A stretch of DNA of 64,000 nt from Hyalangium gracile (GTDB taxonomy: Bacteria; Myxococcota; Myxococcia; Myxococcales; Myxococcaceae). A model generated the notes under the pieces. It was not told the origin of the DNA. It was given only the letters and a program-made list of their open reading frames with translations, and ran no database searches. Where the stretch lies: NCBI RefSeq assembly GCF_020103725.1, contig NZ_JAHXBG010000007.1, positions 434,001 to 498,000 on the forward strand, in the 5' to 3' direction. This document shows, piece after piece, positions 403-25,983 of the stretch; positions within the stretch are counted from its first letter, which is position 1, and each line of letters opens with the position of its first letter. A program made the position numbers and the translations under genes.

Positions 403-2796
403 TCAGAAGTTCACGACGAGCCGGTCCCAGGTCGCGCTCATGGGGACCTCGAGCACTCCGTCCTTCATGGAGCCCAGCTCCAGCGCGCCCGTGACCGAGC
501 GCACCCCCTTGACGCCGTAGATGAACAGCGTCTCCCGCTGGCGCGTGAGGGGCAGGTTGCCCTGGACCTTCCGCTCCACCCAGAAGCGTCCCCGGTCCAT
601 GCCCCCGGTGAGGATGGAGGTCCGGGAGGCCCCGTACCCGTCGCCCTCGTCCTCGTAGAGCCGCGTGCGCAGGTCCGGGCCGGCGTGGATGTGCCACTCG
701 AGGTAGTCCCAGTTGGCCGTCGTCGTGTGCGGCGCCGGCTTCGTGAGCGCGATGGCTCCTCCGGCCCGCAGCCACACGGGCACCGTGTCCAGCGGGCCGT
801 CGGCGATGACGTGCTGGCCTCCCTCCCGCACCGCGCAGGCCCTCTCCAGGTTGGGCCACTCCAGCCACTGGCCCTTCGGCAGGTACACCATCCGCCTGGT
901 GTGGCCCGGCTTCGTGATGGGCGCCACCAGCAGCTCCCTCCCGAAGAGGAACTGATCGAACGCGCGCAGCGCATCCAGGTCCGCCGGATCCAGCATGAGC
1001 AGCGGCCGCATCACCGGCAGCCCCGTCTCCGCCGCCTCCTGCATCAACGAGTACAGCGTGGGCAGCAGCCGGTACCGCCGCTCCATCGCCTCCTTCGCCA
1101 GCGCCAGGTGCTTGTCTCCGAAGCGCCAGGGCTCCTGGAAGGGCATCGGCTTGGCCGCGTGGTTGCGCATCAGCGGATAGAACGTCCCCAGCTGGGTCCA
1201 CCGCGCCATCAGGTCCGCGCTCGGGCGGCCGATGAAGCCGGGGATGTCCACGCCCGTGAACGCCACCCCCGACAGCCCCAGGCCCATGAGCATCGGCATC
1301 GACAGCTCCAGGTGCTCCCAGTGGCTCGAGTTGTCTCCCGTCCACGCCGCCGCGTAGCGCTGCATGCCCGCATACCCCGCGCGCGTCAGCAGGAAGGGCC
1401 GGCGCTGCGGCGCGTACTGGCGGAAGCCCTCGAAGGCCGCCTTCGTCATCGCCAGCCCGTAGACGTTGTGCACCTCCAGGTGCCGCCGCTTCCCGTGCCT
1501 GGCCGCGTACGGCAGCGTCTTGCCCTCGCGCCGCCTGGCCTCCTCCATCCGCCCGCCCGTGGCCGCCACGCTCCCCGAGGCCTCGAGCAGCTCGAAGCAC
1601 GCCGGCTCGTTCATGTCGTTCCAGAAGCCCGCGATGCCCTGCTCGAGGAACTCCTGGTGCCAGTTGCCCCACCAGCGCTGCACCTCCTCGCGGGTGAAGT
1701 CCGGGAACACCGCTGGCCGCGCCCACACCTCGCCCACCAGCACGTCCCCGCTGTCGGCGCGCACCAGGTAGTCCTGGGCCTTCGCCTCCTCGTACGTGAC
1801 GTAGCCGGGCTCGGCCTTCACGTTGGGGTTGATGATGGGCACCAGGCGCACGCCCGCGCCGGCCGCCTCGCGCGTGAGCCCCTGCGGATCCGGGAACCGC
1901 GTGCGATCCCACGTCCACACCTTGTAGGCGTCCAGGTAGTCGATATCGAGGTACACCGCGTCCAGCGGCAGCCCGCGCGAGCGGTACGCCTGGATGACGC
2001 CTCGGATGTCGTCCGCGCTCTCGTAGCCCCAGCGCGACTGCTGCGCGCCCAGGCTCCACAGCGGCGGCAGCGGCGGGCGCCCCGTCAGCGTCACGTACCG
2101 CCGCACCACGTCCGCCGGGTGCGGCCCGACGATGAGGTACACGTCCAGCTCCGGGCCCCAGCTCTCCCAGCGCACCCGGTCCGGCTCTGCGTACGCCACG
2201 TCCACCTCGGAGCGCCACGTCTCGTCCAGGAAGAAGCCCCACGCGATGCCATCGCGCAGGCCCATGCTGAAGGGGATGGAGATGTAGAGCGGATCCGTGT
2301 CCGGGTGGTGCGGCATCACGTCCGTGTTCCAGAACGTGAAGCGCATGCCGCGCTTGTCGAGCGAGCCCACCTTCTCCCCGAAGCCCAGGTACGCCTCGTC
2401 CGGAGGGGCGTGCAGCGCCAGCCGCGCCCGGTGGTGGTTCACCGGCATGTGCGGCGAGGACTCTCCGGAGACCGACTCGCACCGCGCCAGCTCCCGGCCC
2501 TCCGCGTCCCGGAAGCGCCAGGTGCCCGTCGCCGCCGACAGCTCCAGCGAGGCGCCCTCCGCCGTGAGGTGGATCGTCTCTCCGTCGCGGCGGACCTCGA
2601 GGGGCCGCGCCTCGTCGGTGACCACCGCCCAGGACTGCTTGGGCGCCAATTGGGGGTGCGCGAAGCCCACGCCCGCCGAGGAGGGCGCGTGGCGGATGCG
2701 CAGCACTCCCGGTAGCGGGCACCGGACCTCGAGCGCGGCGCGCGCTCCCCAGAGGTGCAGGCGAGTGGGCTCGATGGCGGAGTCAGTGAGGCGCAT
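403..2796 (-). CDS. Glycoside hydrolase family 31 (alpha-glucosidase/alpha-xylosidase-like)
   Basis: A 797-aa enzyme expected to hydrolyse alpha-linked terminal glucose or xylose with retention. The GH31 nucleophile motif is complete: GFWNDMNEP with Asp394. The general acid/base Asp488 lies in WTGDNSSHW. An N-terminal beta-sandwich (about 1-240) precedes the barrel, and a C-terminal beta region follows residue 640. Other GH31 blocks visible are DAVYLDIDY and the MRNHAAKPMPFQEPW segment. No signal peptide is seen, so it is probably cytoplasmic. The Met start at 2796 gives full family length. Family membership is firm. Alpha-glucosidase versus alpha-xylosidase specificity is inference. Confidence 0.9.
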   Translation of the reverse strand: MRLTDSAIEPTRLHLWGARAALEVRCPLPGVLRIRHAPSSAGVGFAHPQLAPKQSWAVVTDEARPLEVRRDGETIHLTAEGASLELSAATGTWRFRDAEGRELARCESVSGESSPHMPVNHHRARLALHAPPDEAYLGFGEKVGSLDKRGMRFTFWNTDVMPHHPDTDPLYISIPFSMGLRDGIAWGFFLDETWRSEVDVAYAEPDRVRWESWGPELDVYLIVGPHPADVVRRYVTLTGRPPLPPLWSLGAQQSRWGYESADDIRGVIQAYRSRGLPLDAVYLDIDYLDAYKVWTWDRTRFPDPQGLTREAAGAGVRLVPIINPNVKAEPGYVTYEEAKAQDYLVRADSGDVLVGEVWARPAVFPDFTREEVQRWWGNWHQEFLEQGIAGFWNDMNEPACFELLEASGSVAATGGRMEEARRREGKTLPYAARHGKRRHLEVHNVYGLAMTKAAFEGFRQYAPQRRPFLLTRAGYAGMQRYAAAWTGDNSSHWEHLELSMPMLMGLGLSGVAFTGVDIPGFIGRPSADLMARWTQLGTFYPLMRNHAAKPMPFQEPWRFGDKHLALAKEAMERRYRLLPTLYSLMQEAAETGLPVMRPLLMLDPADLDALRAFDQFLFGRELLVAPITKPGHTRRMVYLPKGQWLEWPNLERACAVREGGQHVIADGPLDTVPVWLRAGGAIALTKPAPHTTTANWDYLEWHIHAGPDLRTRLYEDEGDGYGASRTSILTGGMDRGRFWVERKVQGNLPLTRQRETLFIYGVKGVRSVTGALELGSMKDGVLEVPMSATWDRLVVNF

Positions 2797-2977
2797 GACC
2801 GCGATTGTATGGATGCTGGCCGATCAGGCGACTGCAATCGGAAGGACCGAGGGGGATGCAGGCGTTATCGCAGGAGTTTCGTGACGCAGTGCTCCGGATA
2901 CCTGCTCCCAGGAGCCAGCCCTCGAGAGAGGGGCTCCGGGGCGGGAGCGGTGACGGCGAAACCCCAGGTGCGACGAG

Positions 2978-3829
2978 ATGAGCAACCGGCCTGCCTGCCT
3001 CGGACCGGGAGGCCCGTGGCGCTCCCCGCGCTGCCTTCGAGCAGTGGGGAGCGCGGCGGTGCTCCTCCTGGCCCTCGGATGTGAACCCAAGGATTTCGGA
3101 AGGACGACCCCGACGATGAATGGACAGCGAGCAACCCGTTTGAACGACACCCTGGCCCGCCAGGGCCGGCTGGAGGCACGGCCTCGGGCATTGACGGTGG
3201 AAAGCCCCCAGCGCGGCAGGATGCCACTGGGACTGGGAGGCAAGCGTGACGGCTTCCTCTACGTGCCGGAGAGCTATCGCGCGGACCAGCCAGCGCCCCT
3301 GGTGGTGATGCTCCATGGGGCGGGGGGCCACGCGCAGCACGCCCTGGGCATCCTCCAGCCGCTCGCGGACGCACAGGGCCTCATCCTCGTGGCTCCGGAC
3401 TCCCGGGGACCGACGTGGGATGTCATCCGCGGCGACTATGGCGCGGACGTCCTCTTCATCGACGCGGCGCTCGCCTGGGTCTTCGAGCACTACGCCGTGG
3501 ACCCGGAGCGTGTCGCCATCGGCGGCTTCTCGGATGGCGCCTCGTATGCCCTGTCGCTGGGCATCTCCAACGGCGATCTGTTCACGCACGTCCTGGCTTT
3601 CTCGCCGGGGTTCGCCGCTCCGCGCGAGCAGCACGGCGAGCCGCGCATCTTCATCTCGCATGGGACGGAGGACGCGGTCCTCCCCATCGACCCTTGCAGC
3701 CGGCGCCTCGTGCCCCGGCTCGAAGGCGTGGGGTACGACGTGCTCTACCGCGAGTTCGAGGGGCCGCACACCGTCCCCGCGGAGATCGCGCGCGAGGCGG
3801 CGGAGTGGTTCCGGACCGCCTCGAACTGA
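2978..3829 (+). CDS. Lipoprotein alpha/beta-hydrolase (PHB depolymerase/LpqC-like esterase)
   Basis: A 283-aa predicted lipoprotein esterase. A hydrophobic N-terminus ends in LLLALGC with Cys35 as the likely lipidation site; the box is slightly non-canonical. The hydrolase core starts near residue 85 with the oxyanion segment VVMLHGAGGHA. The nucleophile Ser is in GGFSDGAS (a GxSxG elbow), an acidic residue in SHGTEDAVLPID, and the catalytic His in GPHTVPAEI. This order matches the LpqC/polyhydroxybutyrate depolymerase-like subfamily, whose members often act on feruloyl or short-chain esters. The substrate is unknown. The start at 2978 was chosen because it gives an intact signal sequence. 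Confidence 0.8.
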   Translation: MSNRPACLGPGGPWRSPRCLRAVGSAAVLLLALGCEPKDFGRTTPTMNGQRATRLNDTLARQGRLEARPRALTVESPQRGRMPLGLGGKRDGFLYVPESYRADQPAPLVVMLHGAGGHAQHALGILQPLADAQGLILVAPDSRGPTWDVIRGDYGADVLFIDAALAWVFEHYAVDPERVAIGGFSDGASYALSLGISNGDLFTHVLAFSPGFAAPREQHGEPRIFISHGTEDAVLPIDPCSRRLVPRLEGVGYDVLYREFEGPHTVPAEIAREAAEWFRTASN

Positions 3830-16678: not shown

Positions 16679-18490
16679 ATGAGCACCGGTGGCACGACGC
16701 GGCGGGCTTCCTTCAGCCGGCACCTGGTGAGGCCCGTGCCCGTGGGCAACCTCGTGGGCGCGGCGCTGGCCTACTACTACGCCTCGCTGACCATGGCGGA
16801 GAAGCTGGCCAGGGCCTTCCCGCTCTTCAAGTCCCTGGGCGTGGTGGCCTGCGTGCTCGCCACGCTGGCCGGGGGCGGCATGCTGCTGCGGCGGCTGCGC
16901 GTGCTGCGCGGCCTGGAGCGCGGCGACCTGTCTCCCAGCTCGGAGAACCTGGCGCGGGCCGCGGTCGAGGCCACGAGCGCCGCGGATGCGACGTTCGTCA
17001 AGTCGCTGATGATGTGGCTCGGCTCCACGGTGGTGCTGGGCGTGCTGGTGAGCACGGTGGGTGGGGTGGGCTGGCGCGCGGGCATGGGCGTGGCCTGCCT
17101 GGGGCTGCTGTTCGGGCCCATCACCGCGCTGCTCGTCCACTGCATGGTGACGCTGCGGGCGCGCCAGGTGGTGCTGTGGCTGAGCGAGCTCGGGCTGAGC
17201 CACTCGCAGATCGTCTCCGCCATGCCCCGGCGCGCGCAGATCCGCGTCCGGCTGGTGCTCTTCACCGCCATCGCCGTGGTGACGCCCGCGGTGCTCTCCT
17301 CCAACCTCGCCTCGGCCCTGGCGGAGCATGCCTATGAGGCGGTGCTCGCCACGCCGGAGCCGCAGCAGGCGCAGCGCGTGCAAGAGCTGCGCATGGAGGC
17401 CCTCACCTCCGGCGGGGCGCTGTGTCTGCTCGTGTTCGGGCTGGCGCTCACCACCGCGTACCTGGGTGGCACGCTGGTGGGGCGTCCCATCCGCCAGCTC
17501 GCCGACGAGGCGCGGCGCATCGCGGATGGGAACCTGGCGACGCCGCGGCTCATCCCCGCCGAGGACGAGGTGTGGGGCGTGTCCGCCGCGTTCGCGATGA
17601 TGCGGGCGCACCTGGCGGACGTGCTCTCGCAGCTGCAGCGCGCGGGCGCGCAGATCAGCGCCACCACGGAGGAGATCCTCGCCACCTCGGGCCGCTACGA
17701 GGCCGGGGCCGCCGAGCAGGCCAGCTCGCTGGACGAGACGAGCGCCACCACGGAGGAGCTGGCCCGGAGCGCTCGGCAGATCGCGGAGAACGCCGGCTCG
17801 GTGGCGGAGATCGCCCAGCGCACGCTCGGGGCGGCGCAGGGAGGGCAGGGCAGCGCGGAGGCCTTCCTCGCCTCCATGAGCCGCATGCGCAACGACAACC
17901 AGGCCATCGCCTCGGCCGTCACCCGGCTCAACAAGCGCGTGCAGCAGATCGGCAAGATCGTCGAGTTCATCAACGGCGTGGCCGACAAGTCGGACCTGCT
18001 GGCGCTCAACGCGGAGCTGGAGGGCACCAAGGCGGGCGAGGTGGGCCGGGGCTTCTCGCTGGTGGCCGCGGAGATGCGCCGCCTGGCCGAGAACGTGCTG
18101 GAGTCCACCAAGGAGATCGAGGGGCTCATCGAGGAGGTGCGTGAGGCCTCGCGCGCGGCGGTGGCGGCCACCGAGGGCGGCGTGCGCGCCACGGAGACGG
18201 GCACCTCCCTGGCGCAGCAGGTGTCCGAGTCGCTCAAGCAGATCCTCGATCTGGCCGGGCAGACGTCGGACGCGGTGCGCTCCATCTCGCTGGCCACGCA
18301 GCAGCAGCAGACGGGCACCGACCAGCTCGCCGACACCATGGCGGACATCCTCCGCATCACCCAGCAGAGCCTGAACGCCACCAAGCAGGTGAGCACGGCC
18401 AACGGGGATCTGCTGGTGCTCGCGCTGGATCTGCGCAACGTGGTGGAGCGCTTCCAGATCAGCCAGCCGCCGCCGAGGAGCGAAGGGTGA
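16679..18490 (+). CDS. Methyl-accepting chemotaxis protein B, paralogue of the preceding receptor
   Basis: A 603-aa chemoreceptor with the same architecture as the gene before it: a multi-helix membrane N-terminus without a periplasmic domain, HAMP (about 270-325) and a long signalling coiled coil. The tip sequence (NAELEGTKAGEVGRGFS) and the tail SISLATQQQQTGTDQLA are identical to its neighbour's, while the membrane parts differ, suggesting tandem duplication with divergent sensing. Its TGA overlaps the GTG of the kinase gene by 4 bp (18487-18490). The two receptors may form mixed arrays; that is inference. Confidence 0.92.
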   Translation: MSTGGTTRRASFSRHLVRPVPVGNLVGAALAYYYASLTMAEKLARAFPLFKSLGVVACVLATLAGGGMLLRRLRVLRGLERGDLSPSSENLARAAVEATSAADATFVKSLMMWLGSTVVLGVLVSTVGGVGWRAGMGVACLGLLFGPITALLVHCMVTLRARQVVLWLSELGLSHSQIVSAMPRRAQIRVRLVLFTAIAVVTPAVLSSNLASALAEHAYEAVLATPEPQQAQRVQELRMEALTSGGALCLLVFGLALTTAYLGGTLVGRPIRQLADEARRIADGNLATPRLIPAEDEVWGVSAAFAMMRAHLADVLSQLQRAGAQISATTEEILATSGRYEAGAAEQASSLDETSATTEELARSARQIAENAGSVAEIAQRTLGAAQGGQGSAEAFLASMSRMRNDNQAIASAVTRLNKRVQQIGKIVEFINGVADKSDLLALNAELEGTKAGEVGRGFSLVAAEMRRLAENVLESTKEIEGLIEEVREASRAAVAATEGGVRATETGTSLAQQVSESLKQILDLAGQTSDAVRSISLATQQQQTGTDQLADTMADILRITQQSLNATKQVSTANGDLLVLALDLRNVVERFQISQPPPRSEG

Positions 18491-20964
18491 CTCCCCGCGA
18501 CAGGCTGCTCAAGCAGTTCCGCGACCTGGTCGGGGTGCGCATGGAGCGCATCAACCGCGCCATCGTGGAGCTGGAGTCCGGAGGCAACGTGGAGACGGGG
18601 CGCAAGGCGCTCCGAGAGCTCCACGGCCTCAAGGGCGAGGCCCGGATGATGGGCTTCGACAGCATCAACGTGCTCGTCCACGAGATGGAGGAGCTGGTCC
18701 GCTCCAGCGAGGTTGCCCAGTACGCCCTCTCCCACGAGTCCGCCGACGCGCTCCTGAAGTCCGCGGACGCGGTGACGGTGCTCTCGGGCCTGGTGGCCTC
18801 GGAAGAGGCTCCCGAGGTGGAGAAGCTGGTGTCTTGGCTCCGGGAGCGCACCAAGGTGGAGCAGACCCAGCTCGGCAGCGGCGTCCCCGAGCCCGTGCTG
18901 CTGCCCGCCGTGCCGAAGCCGATTGTGCCCGAGAAGGCGCCGCCCGCGGCTCCCCCGGCGACGGCTTCGCCGCCTGCCTCCCGGCAGACTCCGAGCCCGG
19001 TTCCTTCCACGCCTCGGAGCCCTCTTCCGGCCGCCCCGGCTCCGACGGCCTCGCCTCCGACGGCCTCGCCTCCGGCAGCGGCTTCCGGGACTCCGGGCGG
19101 GCCGTCCACCTCCGCGCCTGCCACCACCCCGGGCTCGGGCCCTGCAGGCACGAGCCGCCAGCCCGCTGCCAGCACATGGCCGCAGGCGCCCACCCGCTCC
19201 GCGGGGGCCGCCACTTCCGGGGCGGGGCCGTCCGGAGCGCCCGCTGCAGCGGCCCAGACTTCGCGGCCGGAGATGCGCGCGGACAGCTCGGTGCGCATCG
19301 ACGTGGGCAGCCTGGATCTGCTCACCAGCGCCGCCACCAACCTCTCCCAGGTGGCGCGCCGCCGGGAGCTGGCCAACACCCGCCGCCTGGCCCTGGCCCG
19401 GGAGCTGGCCCAGCTCGCCCGCGAGGCGGAGGATCTGGGGCCGGCGGGCTCGGCGCTCGCCGCCAAGCTGAGCAAGGCCAAGGATGAGGCCGCCGCGCTC
19501 CACCGCGAGTCGAAGCTGCTGGCCAACGAGGAGCTGAGGGATTTGGGGCAGGTGGTCGAGGAGGTGCAGCGCATCCGCATGCTGCCGCTCTCGGTCCTCT
19601 TCGAGCCCTATCCGCGCGTGGTGCGCGACATGGCCCGGGAGCTGGGCAAGGAAGTGGACCTGGTGGTGGACGGCGAGGACACCCGCGCCGACCGCGCCGT
19701 CGTCGAGGCGCTGCGCGAGCCGCTGCTCCACCTCATCCGCAACGCGCTGGATCACGGCCTGGAGACCCGGGTGGATCGCGTGGCGGCGGGCAAGCGCCCC
19801 AAGGGGTGTCTGACGCTGCGCGCCTCGCGCGAGGGCAACCGCATCGTCCTGCGGGTGGAGGACGACGGCCTGGGCCTGGACACGGCGATGCTGCGCAAGG
19901 TGGCCGTGCGCAAGGGCTTCCTGGACGAGATGGCCGCTGGCGCCCTCACCGAGGCTCAGGCCCGCGAGCTCATCTTCCTCTCCGGCTTCTCCTCCCGCGA
20001 GGAAGTCACCCACATCTCCGGGCGAGGCGTGGGGCTGGATGCCGTGCGCACCGCGGTGCAGACCCTGGGCGGGGACGTGGGCGTCGAGTCCGCGCCGGGC
20101 TGGGGCACCATCTTCGAGATCCGCGTCCCCGTCTCCCTCACGGTGGCGCCGCTGCTCTTCGTGAAGGCGGGGGACGAGACGCTGGCCCTGAGCGCCGCCC
20201 ACGTCACCCGGGCGCTCAAGCTGGACCTCTCCGCGATGACGGAGCTGGCCGGGCGGCCGGCGCTGGACGTGGACGGCCGGGTGCTGCCCTTCGGCCACCT
20301 CTCCTCGCTGCTCGGACTGGCCCCGGAGCGCCGCCCGTCCGAGGGAGAGCTGGTGCTCGTGGTCCGCAGCCAGGGCGCCACCGCCGCGCTGTCGGTGGAG
20401 CGGGTCCTCGAGGAGCGCGTCCAGGCCATCCTCCCCCTGCGGGGGCTGCTGGGCCGCTTTGGACACCTCACCGGCGCCACCACCCTGGCGGACGGTCGGC
20501 TGGCGATGGTGCTGTCGGCCGCCTACCTGACGGCTGGCGCCCACGGCTCGCTCTCCGTCCGCCTGCCGCGCGCGGCCGCCCGGGCTCCCGAAATCCACCG
20601 TCGGCGGATTCTGGTCGTGGATGACTCACCCCTCACCCGCGAGCTCATCTCCGCGCTCCTGGAGGCGGTGGGGTACGACATCGTCGCCGCCGCGGACGGC
20701 GCCGAGGCCCTCCACCTGCTCACCCAGACCCAGGTGGACCTGGTGGTGACGGACCTGGAGATGCCCGGCCTGGACGGCCTGGAACTCACCCGCCAGCTCA
20801 AGGGGCATGACACCCTTAACCGACTCCCGGTCATCATCCTCACCACGCGTGGAGGGGAGGAGGACCGCAAGAAGGGGTTGGCGGCGGGGGCCAACGGCTA
20901 CATCACCAAGGGCGATCTGGTCCGGCAGGACCTGGTGGACGTGGTGAAGCGCCTGCTGGGGTAA
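18487..20964 (+). CDS. Hybrid CheA-type histidine kinase with C-terminal receiver
   Basis: An 825-aa CheA-REC fusion like FrzE. The Hpt domain has phospho-acceptor His46 ([14 protein letters not shown]). A long Pro/Ala/Ser linker (about 140-260) replaces the P2 region. Then come a dimerisation helix (about 270-340), an HATPase domain with N-box [20 protein letters not shown] and [10 protein letters not shown] boxes, a CheW-like regulatory domain (about 550-695), and a receiver (708-825) with Asp756 (VVTDLEMPG). Intramolecular phosphotransfer to the receiver is the likely output, since no separate CheY is present. It starts at GTG, overlapping the receptor gene. Confidence 0.93.
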
Positions 20965-21032
20965 AGGGCACCCTGAGACAGGCGACTCCATTGGGTATAC
21001 TCCTGGTGGCGCGCACGGGGTATGCACAGGTA

Positions 21033-22088
21033 ATGGGCAAGAAAGTGTCGGTGCTGGTGGTCGATGACTCGCTCATCTGCCGACAGCTCATCTGCGAAGC
21101 ACTGGGCCAGGACCCGGATCTCACGGTCGTGGGCACGTGCGTGGACGGCAAGGAAGCGCTGGCGCGCGTCAAGGAGCTGCGCCCCAACGTCGTCACCATG
21201 GATGTGGACATGCCGGTGATGGACGGGCTCACCGCCGTGGAGCACATCATGGCTGAGTGCCCCACCCCCATCCTGGTGCTCACCGCGGATCCGCGGCAGC
21301 AGGCGCCGGAGCTGACGTGCCGGGCGCTGGAACTGGGCGCGCTGGGGCTGCGCGTCAAGCCGTCCATCGACGATGGGCTGGAGGCGTGGAACCTGGCCAA
21401 GGAGCTGAAGCTGCTGGCCTCGGTGCGGGTGATCCGCCACCTGCGAGGCCCCAAGCGCATCACTCCGCCGGTGCGCAACGAGCTGCCCTCGCTGCTGCCG
21501 CCGAGCATGGGCATGGTGGCGGTGGCCGCCTCGACGGGCGGGCCGCAGGTGCTGCACCGGATGCTGTCGGAGCTGCCGGCGGACTTCCCGGCGCCCATCG
21601 CCATCGTCCAGCACATCAACGCGGCGTTCGCCGAGTCGCTGGCGGGCTGGCTGGCCAACTCCTGCCGCCTGAAGGTCCGGCTGGCGCAGGACGGCGAGCT
21701 GCTGATGCCGGGGCACGTGCTGATCGCCCCGCCGGGCATGCACATGGTCATCCCGTTCCGGGGGCGCGTGGCGCTCAAGCCGGGCGTGGAGCGCGACGGG
21801 CACATGCCGTCGGCCACGGTGCTCCTGGAGAGCGCGGCCAAGGCGTACGGGCGGCGCGCGCTGGGCGTCATCCTCACCGGCATGGGCGAGGACGGCGCGG
21901 CGGGCATGCTCGCCATCAAGCAGGCCGGAGGGTTCACGATCGCTCAGAACGAGGAGTCTTGCGTCGTGTTCGGCATGCCGGGCGCGGCCGTGGAGCGCAA
22001 CGCGGTGGATCACCTCGTCCATGGGGACGAGGTGGCCGCGGCGCTGATACGGCTGTCGCGCGGTGAAGCCCTCGCCCAGGGGCGGTGA
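21033..22088 (+). CDS. cheB: CheB chemotaxis protein-glutamate methylesterase
   Basis: A 351-aa two-domain CheB. The receiver (1-125) has acidic DDS and phospho-acceptor Asp57 ([13 protein letters not shown]). The methylesterase domain (from about 160) has catalytic Ser168 (AASTGGPQ), His195 (IVQHIN) and an Asp in [10 protein letters not shown]. It removes methyl groups from, and deamidates, receptor glutamates, giving adaptation to the two MCPs upstream. ATG 21033 was chosen because it begins at the receiver; an in-frame start at 20991 would add 14 residues. The gap to the kinase is 68 bp. Confidence 0.92.
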
Positions 22089-22092
22089 CGGC

Positions 22093-23922
22093 GTGACGTC
22101 GGCTCGGCCAGGCTCGCTCATCCACGCGTACATCACCACGCGGACGGGCATGGCCCTGAGTGACAACCAGAGGCGCAGGCTGGACGAGCGGCTGGCGGTG
22201 CTCCGGGGCTCGCTCTCGGAGCAGCAGTACCTGATGCACCTGCAGTCCGCGTCGGGCGCGGCGGAGCTGTCCACGCTCATCTCCGTGGTGGCCGTCCACA
22301 AGACGGACCTGTTCCGGGACGAGGTGCAGCTGGGGGACTTCCGCACCCAGGTGCTCGTGCCGCTGGTGGCGAAGTCGGCGGGGCGGCCGCTGCGCTTCTG
22401 GAGCGCGGGCTGCGCCACGGGCGAGGAGGTGGCCACGCTCCTGATGATGCTCGACGAGGCGGGGGCGGATCCGGGCAGCTCGGTGCTGGGGACGGACATC
22501 TCCGAGGCGGCGCTCAACCGGGCGCGGACGCTGAGCTTCTCCGCGGAGCAGGTGCGCCGGCTGCCGGCCGTGCTCCGCGAGCGCTACTTCATGCCCGACG
22601 GCTCGCGCAGCCTGCTGGTGCCGGAGCTGCGCGAGCGCGCCAACTTCCATCTCCACAACCTGATGGAGACGCCGTACCCCACCGCCGGCGGCAACGAGGG
22701 CTTCGACGTCATCTTCTGCCGCAACGTCCTCATCTACTTCACGGCGGAGGCGTTCGAGCGGGTGGTGCTCGCGCTGGCGGAGCGGCTCGCGCCCGGGGGG
22801 ACGCTGGTGCTCTCCGCCGCGGAGCCGCTGCTGCAAGCCCCGCCCAGCCTGCGCGTCATCCGCAGCGAGCACGCCTTCTTCTATGTGCGCACGCCGAACC
22901 TGCTGGCGGCACCTTCGTCCCGGCACCTGCTGACGGGAGGGGGCGCGAGCGAGCCGTTCTCGTCCGGCCTCGAGCGCCGCAGGGACGCGGGGGCCTTTCC
23001 GGTGGTAGCGCCCTCGGCGCCTTCGGAGCGTCCGCGGGAGCAGGGGGCCGCGCCGCCCCAGCCACCCCCTGCTCCAGCGCCCGAGTGGCCGAAGGAGACA
23101 GGGGCTCCTCCAGGTCCGCCTCCCACGACGAGCGGCGAGCCTCGGAGGGACTCCGGGCGCTACGCCACGGTGCCGGGTGAGCCGCGGAGGGACTCCGGGC
23201 GCTACGCCACGGTGGGGACGGAGCCTCGGCGGGACTCGGGGCGCTACGCCAGCGTACCGGGTGAGCCGAGGCGTGAATCGGGCAGCTACGCCACGGTGCC
23301 GGGTGAGCCGCGGAGGGACTCGGGGCGCTACGCCACGGTGGGGACGGAGCCTCGGCGGGACTCCGGGCGCTACGCCAGCGTGCCGGGTGAGCCTCGGCGG
23401 GACTCCGGGAGCTTTGCCACGGTTGCTCCCGAGCCTCGGCGTGAATCGGGGAGCCATGCCACCGTGTCTCCCGAGCCACGGCGTGACTCGGGCCGCCATG
23501 CCGCCGTGCCTTCCGGCTCGTGGCCCGCTGGCAGTCCCCAGTCCGGCTCGTTCCCAGCGGTCATGCCCTCCGAGGGGTATGGCGCCCCGGATGGGTCCGA
23601 GGAGCACCCGCTGCTCGCCGAGGCCGACAGCCTCTTCGCCCAGGTGCTCGACGGGGTAGGGGAGACGGACTCGCAGACGGAGGACTACCTGCGGCGCTGC
23701 CTGGCGCTGGATCCGGACCTCTCCGCCGCGCGCTACCTGCTGGGAATGCTGCTGGAGCTGCGGGAGGCGTTCGCCGAGGCCGCCTCCGAGTACCGCCGCG
23801 CCCTGCGCTCCCTGGAGGACGGCCGGGCGCGCCACACCCCCTTCTTCCTCAACCACTCCCGCCTCCGGGTGGCCTGCGCGAAGGCCATCGAGCGCATGGA
23901 GGGGGGCGGCAAGCCCCGCTGA
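22093..23922 (+). CDS. cheR: CheR receptor methyltransferase with 14-aa repeat linker and TPR tail
   Basis: A 609-aa CheR fusion. The SAM-dependent methyltransferase (about 1-265) has FWSAGCATGEEVATL (motif I), GTDISEAALNRA and FDVIFCRNVLIYF. It methylates receptor glutamates opposite CheB. Residues 348-473 are nine tandem 14-aa repeats rich in Glu-Pro-Arg-Arg and Ser-Gly. The C-terminus (about 510-609) is helical and TPR-like, similar in layout to FrzF. The GTG at 22093 has AGGGG about 10 nt upstream and follows the cheB stop. An in-frame GTG at 22063 inside cheB would add 10 residues. Confidence 0.9.
   Translation: MTSARPGSLIHAYITTRTGMALSDNQRRRLDERLAVLRGSLSEQQYLMHLQSASGAAELSTLISVVAVHKTDLFRDEVQLGDFRTQVLVPLVAKSAGRPLRFWSAGCATGEEVATLLMMLDEAGADPGSSVLGTDISEAALNRARTLSFSAEQVRRLPAVLRERYFMPDGSRSLLVPELRERANFHLHNLMETPYPTAGGNEGFDVIFCRNVLIYFTAEAFERVVLALAERLAPGGTLVLSAAEPLLQAPPSLRVIRSEHAFFYVRTPNLLAAPSSRHLLTGGGASEPFSSGLERRRDAGAFPVVAPSAPSERPREQGAAPPQPPPAPAPEWPKETGAPPGPPPTTSGEPRRDSGRYATVPGEPRRDSGRYATVGTEPRRDSGRYASVPGEPRRESGSYATVPGEPRRDSGRYATVGTEPRRDSGRYASVPGEPRRDSGSFATVAPEPRRESGSHATVSPEPRRDSGRHAAVPSGSWPAGSPQSGSFPAVMPSEGYGAPDGSEEHPLLAEADSLFAQVLDGVGETDSQTEDYLRRCLALDPDLSAARYLLGMLLELREAFAEAASEYRRALRSLEDGRARHTPFFLNHSRLRVACAKAIERMEGGGKPR
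23134..23511 (+). repeat. Nine tandem 42-bp repeats within cheR
   Basis: Nine consecutive in-frame 42-bp units encode [GTP]EPRR[DE]SG[RS][YFH]A[TSA]V[PGAS]. Units 2-4 (23176-23301) and 5-7 (23302-23427) are almost identical, forming a 126-bp higher-order duplication. The last two units are the most diverged. Confidence 0.95.
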
Positions 23923-23983: not shown

Positions 23984-24871
23984 ATGCGCCCCCTTATGAG
24001 AAGGCTCGCCCTGCTCTCCCTGCTCGCTCTCTCGGGCTGCTTCTACCCAGCCGACCGCGGCCGTGCGCTCGAGGCCAAGGTCGACAGGCTCAGCGCGGAC
24101 AACACCCGGCTCAACGAGGAGCTGAAGCAGGCGCGCGAGCAGCTCGCCGCCACGCTGCCTCGCATCGACGAGAAGGTCGCCCAGGTCACCCAGGCGCTGG
24201 ACAGCCTGGAGAAGGGCTCGCGCCGCAACGACGCGGACATCGGCATCCAGCTGCAGAAGACGGTGGAGGACCTTGCGAACCTGCGCGGGCAGGTGGAGAC
24301 GTACCTCTACCGCATTGGCGAATTGGAGACGGCGCTCGGCCGGCTCACCTCCGAGGCGGAGAAGAAGCAGCTGTCGCAGCAGGGGCCGGACGCGCTGAAG
24401 GAGGCCGAGGCCAGGAAGCAGGCCGAGACCCTGAAGCGTCCGGAGGACAAGAAGGAGTTCCTGGCGCTGGCCCAGGACAAGGCGAAGGCGGGGGAGTTGC
24501 CCCTGGCGCGCCAGCTCTACTCGGAGTTCATGAAGAAGTGGGCCAAGGATCCCCTCATGGGCGAGGCCCACTTCGGCCTGGGAGAGACGTACTTCACCGA
24601 GGAGAAGTGCCGCGAGGCCCTCTTCGAGTACGGCAAGGTCATCCAGGACTTCGCGAAGACGCCGTCCGCGCCGCGGGCGTACCTGCGCTCCTCGGACTGC
24701 TTCGCGAAGCTGAAGATGACGGAGGAGTCCCGGCTGGCGCTGGAGGAGCTCATCAAGAGCTTCCCCAAGTCCGAGGAAGCCAAGACGGCCAAGACGAAGA
24801 TCGCCGAGCTGGACAAGGCGAAGAAGAAGCCGGCGCCGGCACCGGCGCCCGCGAAGAAGGGAACCAAATGA
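23984..24871 (+). CDS. CpoB/YbgF-like TPR lipoprotein
   Basis: A 295-aa lipoprotein with lipobox LALSGC (Cys19). A coiled coil (about 25-125, DRLSADNTRLNEELKQA and following) resembles the YbgF trimerisation domain, and three TPR-like repeats cover about 160-275 (KAGELPLARQLYSEFMKKW, then FGLGETYFTEEKCREALFEY). A Lys/Pro/Ala tail ends the protein. CpoB/YbgF coordinates outer-membrane constriction with peptidoglycan synthesis in E. coli, but no tol-pal genes are nearby. A second Met at 23996 could be the start. The stop overlaps the next gene's ATG by 4 bp, so the two are translationally coupled. Confidence 0.85.
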   Translation: MRPLMRRLALLSLLALSGCFYPADRGRALEAKVDRLSADNTRLNEELKQAREQLAATLPRIDEKVAQVTQALDSLEKGSRRNDADIGIQLQKTVEDLANLRGQVETYLYRIGELETALGRLTSEAEKKQLSQQGPDALKEAEARKQAETLKRPEDKKEFLALAQDKAKAGELPLARQLYSEFMKKWAKDPLMGEAHFGLGETYFTEEKCREALFEYGKVIQDFAKTPSAPRAYLRSSDCFAKLKMTEESRLALEELIKSFPKSEEAKTAKTKIAELDKAKKKPAPAPAPAKKGTK

Positions 24872-25983
24872 GACTGGGTCGCCTGGCGCTCGCCGCGCTG
24901 GCGTTGCTGCTCGTGCCCTTCGTGGCCGGCGCGGCGCCGAAGAACGTGGTGCTGCTCTTCACCGGAGACAATGGGGGCGAAATCGCCCCCTGTGGTTGAA
25001 TCCACAACCCGTCTGGCGGTCTGGCCAGGCGAAAGATGGCGATTGAAGCAGAGCGTGCGAAGGGCGCGGCGGTGCTCGTGTTGGATGCGGGCAATGCGCT
25101 CTTCAAGTTCCCCAACAGCACCGGAGACAAGAACGAGAAGGCGCGAGCGGAGCTCTTGCTCAAGCAGATGGACGCGATGGGCACCGTGGCCATGGCCGTG
25201 GGCGCGCGCGACCTGACGCTGGGGCTTAACTTCCTGCGCAACGGGGCCAAGGGCGCGAAGATGAAGCTCCTGTCCGCCAACCTGGTGGACAAGGAGGGCA
25301 AGCCCGTGTTCCCGGCCTCCACGGTGGCCACCGTGGGAGGGCTCAAGATCGGCGTGGTGGGAGCCTCGCCGGAGGGCACGCTGCCGGAGTCCAAGGGGCT
25401 GCCGGTGGGCCCGGCCGTGCTCGCCGAGGCCAGGCGCCTGCGCGAAAAGGAGAAGGTGGACGTGGTGGTGCTGCTCGCCGCGGTGCCCTACGAGGTGACG
25501 CGGCGGCTGGCCTCGCAGGCCGAGGGTGTGGACTTCGTCATGCAGTCCCACGAGGGCCGAGGCCCGGGCGTTGCCTACCGCGACGGCCTGGCCACCATGG
25601 TTCCTCCCGGGGAGCGGGGGCGCCAGGTGGCGCGCCTGGAACTGGCCGTGTCCGGCCCGGGCACGTTCCAGGACCTGGCCACCGCCGGTCAGGCCAAGGA
25701 GAGCCTGAAGAACCTGGAAGCCAACCTGAAACGGGCCAAGGAGCGGCTGGCGGCAACCAAGGACGAGGCTGCCCGGAAGGCACTCGAGGAGACGGTCGCC
25801 TCCTTCGAGGCCCGGCGGGCCGCCCTGCAGAAAGACGCGAAGCTCGACGCAACGGGGATGGCCCGTACGCATCAGTTGTCGTACATCCAGCTGGGGGCGG
25901 ATAAGCCCTCGGATCCCGCCGTCCAGAAGCTGGTGGAGCGCATCGAGCCCCCGGGCTCGAGTGACCACGGACACCCACATTGA
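24868..25983 (+). CDS. UshA-like metallophosphoesterase-family selenoprotein (in-frame UGA = Sec44)
   Basis: One reading frame of 372 codons is interrupted only by TGA at 24997-24999. Upstream lie a signal peptide (cut near GAA, residues 21-23) and VVLLFTGDNGGEIAPCG. Downstream, the same frame continues IHNPSGGLARRK and then about 315 residues of 5'-nucleotidase/UshA-like fold (LVLDAGNALF, VGARDLTLGLNFL, DFVMQSHEGRG). From memory, relatives carry CGC-x(3)-P-x-GGL-x-RR here, so the TGA takes the place of the second Cys: CGU at 42-44. A SECIS-like hairpin follows at 25010-25031. A Lys/Ala-rich coiled coil lies near 275-325. The substrate is unknown. Read conventionally it would wrongly appear as a 43-aa peptide plus a truncated gene at 25036. 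Confidence 0.85.
25010..25031 (+). promoter_or_regulatory. SECIS-like selenocysteine insertion hairpin
   Basis: CGTCTGGC (25010-25017) pairs with GCCAGGCG (25024-25031), 8 bp with one U-G wobble. They enclose the 6-nt loop GGUCUG (25018-25023), which begins 18 nt after the UGA. Loop sequence and distance agree with bacterial SECIS elements bound by SelB; the E. coli fdhF element has a GGUCU apical loop. Confidence 0.82.

Follow-up and report, generated by a model that had tools for sequence, protein, structure and literature searches.

An UshA-like selenoprotein gene with a conserved SECIS hairpin overlaps a CpoB-like lipoprotein gene in Hyalangium gracile and many related bacteria

The family of UshA-like selenoproteins is already known in outline, through the NCBIfam model NF041198 and its CxU motif, and the branch described here falls, on its sequence score, below the cut-off of that model. 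Proteins of the NF041198 type are tabulated with the motif CxU in PMC9312934, where they appear as COG0737, and in PMC13188914, where they appear as NF041198; CxU is also among the motifs in the GOS survey PMC2398784. The bSECIS model given in PMC13188914 describes an apical loop of 3–9 nt on an upper stem of 4–16 bp, with a G within the first two loop positions, a distance of 16–37 nt from the UGA to the apical loop and a minimum free energy (MFE) of at most −7.5 kcal/mol, and the same source assigns selenoprotein genes to genomes that contain selA, selB, selC and selD. We found no treatment of an UshA-like selenoprotein in myxobacteria in the open-access literature, judged by titles and abstract openings; across the main texts of PMC2398784, PMC9312934 and PMC13188914, no word starts with "myxobacter" or "Myxococc" in one of them, or with "Myxo" in the other two.

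The window analysed here, a stretch of 64,000 nucleotides in the 11.7-Mb genome of H. gracile (G000:C7:434001-498000), carries on its forward strand a coding sequence for an UshA-like selenoprotein of 371 residues (24868–25983, stop codon TGA at 25981–25983), delimited by its translation and its homologues. The frame contains a single internal TGA (24997–24999), which the codons of homologues indicate to be the last position of a Cys42-Gly43-Sec44 (CGU) motif (24991–24999, forward strand). An earlier note on this DNA had described a signal peptide, then APCG, TGA and 315 more codons, and the sequence reads accordingly, with a hydrophobic signal-like N-terminus: the TGA is followed by IHNPSGGLARRK and by 315 codons up to the stop. 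The signal-peptide-like segment comprises residues 1–22 (24868–24933, forward strand), with cleavage after AGA placed by eye. Some distant relatives, such as L123, L128 and L129, have by eye a lipobox-like Cys in place of the signal-like end. A list of open reading frames that respects stop codons divides the region into a 153-residue frame ending at the TGA (24538–24999) and a 315-residue frame on the same strand starting at ATG 25036 (25036–25983). The closest named relative of the gene belongs to Hyalangium versicolor, with 84% identity over the matched part, and six other genomes of the order-wide search belong to the same genus.

Alternation of Sec and Cys at residue 44, named by the earlier note as a check on its reading, is seen among 104 homologous loci, in which the codon is TGA in 79 and a Cys codon in 25 (19 short and 6 long forms). 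These are what was left of 112 loci entered in the comparison: the stretches around sel and tRNA genes (L139–L143) had no match, as expected, and L101, L135 and L138 were dropped for having no CGC or CGU motif in the extracted frame, that of L101 having run into the next gene with its state unread. The 79 TGA loci represent 76 genomes, because L062 and L063 seem to come from species identical or close to those of L033 and L041, and genome G039 holds two copies. Across the order, a TGA copy occurs in 88 of 145 genomes (76 read, 12 by the search table only). Within the phylum, a short-form profile has matches in 162 of 195 genomes at E-values up to 1e-15, the weaker of which, unsorted, include long forms and other nucleotidase-like proteins. 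On a quick tree of 112 rows, which left out L062, L063, L125, L194, L195, L201, L202, L206 and L209, the Sec/Cys state changes at least six times on well-supported branches and ten times in all. Most short forms carry Sec, while Cys marks several separate tips and one clade of ten paralogues from large genomes; the Cys paralogues do not lie beside a CpoB-like gene. Cys short-form paralogues with PCGC or HCGC (L091–L100, L084, L086 and L088) come from large genomes that also have the Sec form, and they lack both the loop GGTCT and an adjacent CpoB gene.

Downstream of the TGA lies a SECIS hairpin (25010–25031, forward strand) with an 8-bp stem (25010–25017 paired with 25024–25031) and the loop GGUCUG (25018–25023), assigned from folding, loop conservation, covariation and the bSECIS rules. 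The 42 nt from the TGA fold with an MFE of −15.8 kcal/mol (z −2.5; 5 of 200 shuffles fold as well), and this one stem and loop accounts for 79% of the ensemble. Measured against the bSECIS rules as PMC13188914 gives them, the element has a 6-nt loop on an 8-bp stem, G at the start of GGUCUG, 18 nt between TGA and loop, and the −15.8 kcal/mol just cited over 42 nt. The stem and the fdhF-like loop of the earlier note are thus present, the loop being identical to that of Escherichia coli fdhF and placed at nt 22–27 from the UGA in both; the 42-nt fdhF element used as query matched fdhF at 100% in three E. coli records among the matches listed. The 18-nt spacing claimed in that note holds for the loop, which starts after 18 nt, and not for the stem, which starts after 10 nt. 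By chance, an 8-bp stem with a GGTCT loop arose in 0.17% of 20,000 random synonymous recodings drawn with the codon usage of the family.

Conservation of the element follows the codon state. The loop GGTCT is found at 78 of the 79 TGA loci, L130 (GGCTT) being the sole exception, vs none of the 25 Cys-codon loci; put in codons, the loop Gly is GGT in 78 of 79 TGA forms against a background of 354 GGT among 3980 Gly codons across all compared coding sequences. Over 43 distinct rows, 88% of stem positions pair, compared with 21–42% after one side is slid by 1–3 columns. Eleven cells have two-sided changes, and the covariation score is higher than in any of 500 shuffles. Counting against covariation, pairs with a two-sided change are no more numerous than in shuffles (2 vs 1.6), and two of the outer pairs are unpaired in 12 and 18 of the 43 rows. 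In L106 the loop is kept with the stem register shifted by one, and in L119 the element folds differently. Nine TGA forms from outside the order have inner stems of 6–8 bp at the same place, with GGTCT in eight and GGACT in L201. Since TGA, loop and stem are all conserved across relatives, a chance origin is untenable. Rfam gave no match anywhere in the window at its gathering score and, over 24850–25200 at E-values up to 10, only weak unrelated matches and no SECIS family; as the hairpin is conserved, this was not counted against it. A scan of the same genome with a model of the hairpin was strong only at the window gene (E 2.6e-14; next 0.2; 150 of 13655 candidates scored) and, among those scored, did not return selD.

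The genome also holds selA, selB, selC and selD, all four of the genes that the earlier note had named as a check. A tRNA-Sec scores 71.6 bits with Rfam and is also called tRNA-SeC by ARAGORN, with anticodon TCA (UCA), while the only other Rfam tRNA-Sec match over the cut-off (47.3 bits) is a serine tRNA. SelA scores 577 bits, SelB 308 bits summed over two pieces (cut-off 242) and SelD 377 bits. The selD gene has an in-frame TGA of its own with GGTCT 36 nt downstream of it, so that, judging from these two features, the SelD of this genome is itself probably a selenoprotein. At selD (L021, G000:C7:46327-47256 plus flanks), the context of the TGA reads HCAGU. For formate dehydrogenase alpha (TIGR01591), five matches were found in the genome, all below the cut-off and none with an internal stop.

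Across genomes, the presence of selA follows the Sec codon. It was found over the cut-off in 75 of the 76 genomes with a TGA copy vs one of the five with Cys copies only (Fisher 1.5e-5, ignoring relatedness), a table that covers 81 of the 145 genomes of the order and leaves out those with only long forms, fragments or no match. Adding the twelve genomes with a short-form match and a TGA by table only gives 86 of 88 vs one of five. The four Cys-only genomes without selA sit at four separate places of the tree. The clearest is G077, of the same genus and 100% complete, in which the codon is TGC and the loop is changed to GGCTTG, no selA exceeds the cut-off and the best tRNA-Sec match is a serine tRNA. 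Three genomes are exceptions: G124 (87% complete) has a TGA copy and no selA, G050 (80% complete) has a TGA by table only and no selA, and G129 has Cys copies only with selA present; the best tRNA-Sec matches in G124 and G129 are serine tRNAs. Taken with the hairpin, these data make it almost certain that the window gene is a selenoprotein gene decoded at its in-frame TGA.

The assignment to the UshA-like family made in the earlier note is borne out by three lines of comparison. Among NCBIfam models, NF041198, UshA-like (seleno)protein, fits best with 179.1 bits (cut-off 275), over profile positions 17–374 of 519 with the C-terminal part of the profile unmatched; NF049981, UshA-like (seleno)protein family 2, follows at 38.4 bits, short of its cut-off of 140. 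Sequence matches lead to SoxB and 5'-nucleotidases. An AlphaFold2 model, built from three sequences and weak (mean pLDDT 62), recovers UshA (2ush, E 6.5e-13) and SoxB (2wdc, E 1.5e-9) in Foldseek, with TM scores of 0.40–0.47 on the query among the matches listed. In Pfam, the window protein has no match over the cut-off, and none to a phosphoesterase model. The model predicts two long, coiled-coil-like helices (residues 270–296 and 300–329; 25675–25854, forward strand), with pLDDT of 81–88 over residues 281–320 and lower values at the two helix ends (63 and 48); this predicted pair would replace a C-terminal 5'-nucleotidase or cytochrome domain. Residues 35–50, which include the CGU motif, have pLDDT under 50, so the model does not fix the geometry of the motif.

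The metal site of the 5'-nucleotidase fold, the ligands of which we take to be those of the motifs DxH, GD, GNH, H and GHxH, is largely gone. Aligned to the Thermus thermophilus 5'-nucleotidase 2z1a, the 79 Sec forms keep the first Asp (Asp34) in all 79, and Asp73 and Asp115 in 77 each. The His of DxH is Gly in 72, the Asp of GD is Asn in 71, and an Asp at position 76 is kept in 7. In GNH, at least 72 forms have A, Q, T, E or L for the Asn and 77 have Arg for the His. Ala replaces a later His in 66, and 62 retain the final one (His228). Most positions of the two-metal site that marks UshA and 5'-nucleotidase enzymes are therefore substituted, which makes hydrolysis by the window protein improbable as judged from its residues; a remnant metal or phosphate function may persist, because Asp34, Asp73 and Asp115 are nearly invariant. 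Cys42, Gly43 and residue 44 are invariant in all 79, and Cys42 is the only Cys besides Sec in 66 of them, including the window protein.

The gene is immediately preceded by one for a CpoB/YbgF-like TPR lipoprotein (23984–24871, forward strand), which overlaps its start by 4 nt (ATGA). The earlier note had read this as translational coupling to a CpoB-like lipoprotein, hinting at a redox role in the cell envelope, and the arrangement recurs: a CpoB-like frame terminates no more than about 130 nt from the start at 76 of 79 Sec loci and at 81 of 104 overall, and the same 4-nt overlap is found at 66 of these 81, with starts picked by script. The neighbour scores 74 bits with the tol_pal_ybgF model (cut-off 90.1), and over the TPR region it can be aligned with E. 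coli CpoB (6g5s, E 8e-6), a protein reported in PMC7391070 to regulate PBP1B-dependent peptidoglycan crosslinking with Tol-Pal. Two of its residues, Cys209 and Cys239, are co-conserved, with both present in 73 of the 81 neighbours, neither in five and only Cys239 in three, whereas E. coli CpoB has Lys and Ile at these positions. The TPR register would put Cys209 where one helix B begins and Cys239 towards the end of the following helix A, perhaps at disulfide distance. The UshA-like protein persists in the five relatives without the pair, three of which are close to one another, and the pair therefore cannot be its only substrate. The CpoB-like protein further matches NF053852, the model of a predatory vesicle lipoprotein, at 33 bits, below the cut-off of 250.

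Further out, CheA-, CheB- and CheR-type genes form a chemosensory cluster directly upstream of the gene pair (18487–23922; Pfam). CheB and CheR recur upstream in closer relatives fetched with 3–4 kb flanks (L062–L083, L085, L087, L089 and L090) and are mostly not seen there in the distant relatives L103–L130. Ribosomal protein L31 and a DNA methylase lie downstream (Pfam).

We propose that UGA at codon 44 is decoded through the SECIS hairpin to yield an exported selenoprotein, which would keep the metallophosphatase fold of 5'-nucleotidases and SoxB with its two-metal site dismantled. The Cys42-Gly-Sec44 pair would be placed after the strand that, in relatives, ends in the first metal ligands. 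There the Cys–Sec bond would be formed and broken, cycling between a selenenylsulfide and the reduced pair, so that the protein would serve as a selenol/thiol oxidoreductase of the periplasm. It would work alongside the CpoB-like TPR lipoprotein, its partner in the overlapping gene pair, and perhaps act upon it. To this explanation as a whole, a SECIS-decoded periplasmic oxidoreductase on a former nucleotidase fold beside a CpoB-like partner, we assign a probability of roughly 60%. The co-conserved Cys pair of the neighbour is a candidate substrate. A more specific form, in which the CGU protein is a dedicated redox regulator that makes or breaks a Cys209–Cys239 disulfide in the TPR domain and ties envelope redox to outer-membrane or peptidoglycan remodelling, we consider doubtful; if it is true, a former nucleotidase would have become a switch that depends on selenium and acts on a component of the Tol-Pal type.

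Among other explanations, the one that survives best takes the CGU motif as the electron-transfer site for a separate multihaem cytochrome, the short form having lost a fused cytochrome and using a partner in trans. The profile of NF041198 spans a c554-type domain, joining the CGC/CGU domain to a multihaem cytochrome, and the window protein belongs to a cytochrome-less branch. The same genome encodes a longer homologue with PCGC (L137, G000:C8:340000-344500, ORF 1479–3266, minus strand), in which Cytochrome_C554 matches residues 391–458 at 53.7 bits (cut-off 20.8); it covers the rest of the NF041198 profile, yet at 239.6 bits it too is below the cut-off. By its domain matches, this protein ties the UshA-like selenoprotein family to haem electron transfer. 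Moreover, a Sec form with PCGU, a GGTCT hairpin and four CxxCH motifs exists in another Myxococcota genome outside the order (L200, G155:C129:24000-29500). However, no frame of at least 80 codons at 20–31 kb of the window contains two CxxCH motifs, and only one of the 74 frames there, that of L31, contains one. We regard such a partner cytochrome as rather unlikely.

The CGU pair could also bind a soft metal such as copper, zinc, mercury or arsenic, making the protein a metal chaperone or sensor. CxC-type pairs are able to bind such metals, and Cys42 and Sec are the only two chalcogen ligands in the 66 Sec forms noted above. However, Sec is usually retained for redox catalysis and not for metal storage, and nothing about the neighbours identified in the window (chemosensory proteins, the CpoB-like protein, L31 and a DNA methylase) points to metal handling; we regard this reading as quite improbable. 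Lower still stands a working metallophosphatase or sulfur hydrolase with Sec as a new active-site ligand or nucleophile. Its relative SoxB acts on a sulfur substrate carried on Cys, and the three near-invariant aspartates would suit it, but the substitution of most metal-site positions and the lack of any phosphoesterase Pfam match leave it very improbable. Finally, while a lone in-frame TGA in a single genome looks like a sequencing error, a recent nonsense mutation or a pseudogene, such a lesion is refuted by its recurrence in 79 of 104 loci with a conserved, covarying hairpin and by purifying selection on codons 45–371 (dN/dS 0.28–0.57 in six pairs), and is practically excluded.

Ordinary gene finding would cut the gene at the UGA and neither curated selenoprotein model, NF041198 or NF049981, reaches its cut-off; annotations may therefore truncate or miss a selenoprotein of predatory, multicellular bacteria. 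Very probably, this is an envelope selenoprotein conserved across many myxobacteria. The old phosphatase fold, without most of its metal site and with just one Cys–Sec pair, seems to have been converted to a redox role; natural Cys replacements accompany the loss of selA, and the overlap with the CpoB-like gene offers a concrete place to look for its role.

Set against the described systems, the window protein resembles NF041198 members in the PCGU motif of the UshA-like N-terminal domain, with Sec or Cys at the same place, and differs in stopping before the C-terminal part of the profile, which in the longer relative is a c554-type multihaem domain. NF049981 belongs to the same superfamily and is listed in PMC13188914 with the motif CxxU, whereas the window protein has CxU. 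Its hairpin differs from the fdhF SECIS in stem sequence and is a regular 8-bp stem. With E. coli UshA, T. thermophilus 5'-nucleotidase and SoxB it has the fold of the first domain in common; unlike them, it carries the CGU motif, has most metal-site residues replaced and lacks a C-terminal 5'-nucleotidase domain.
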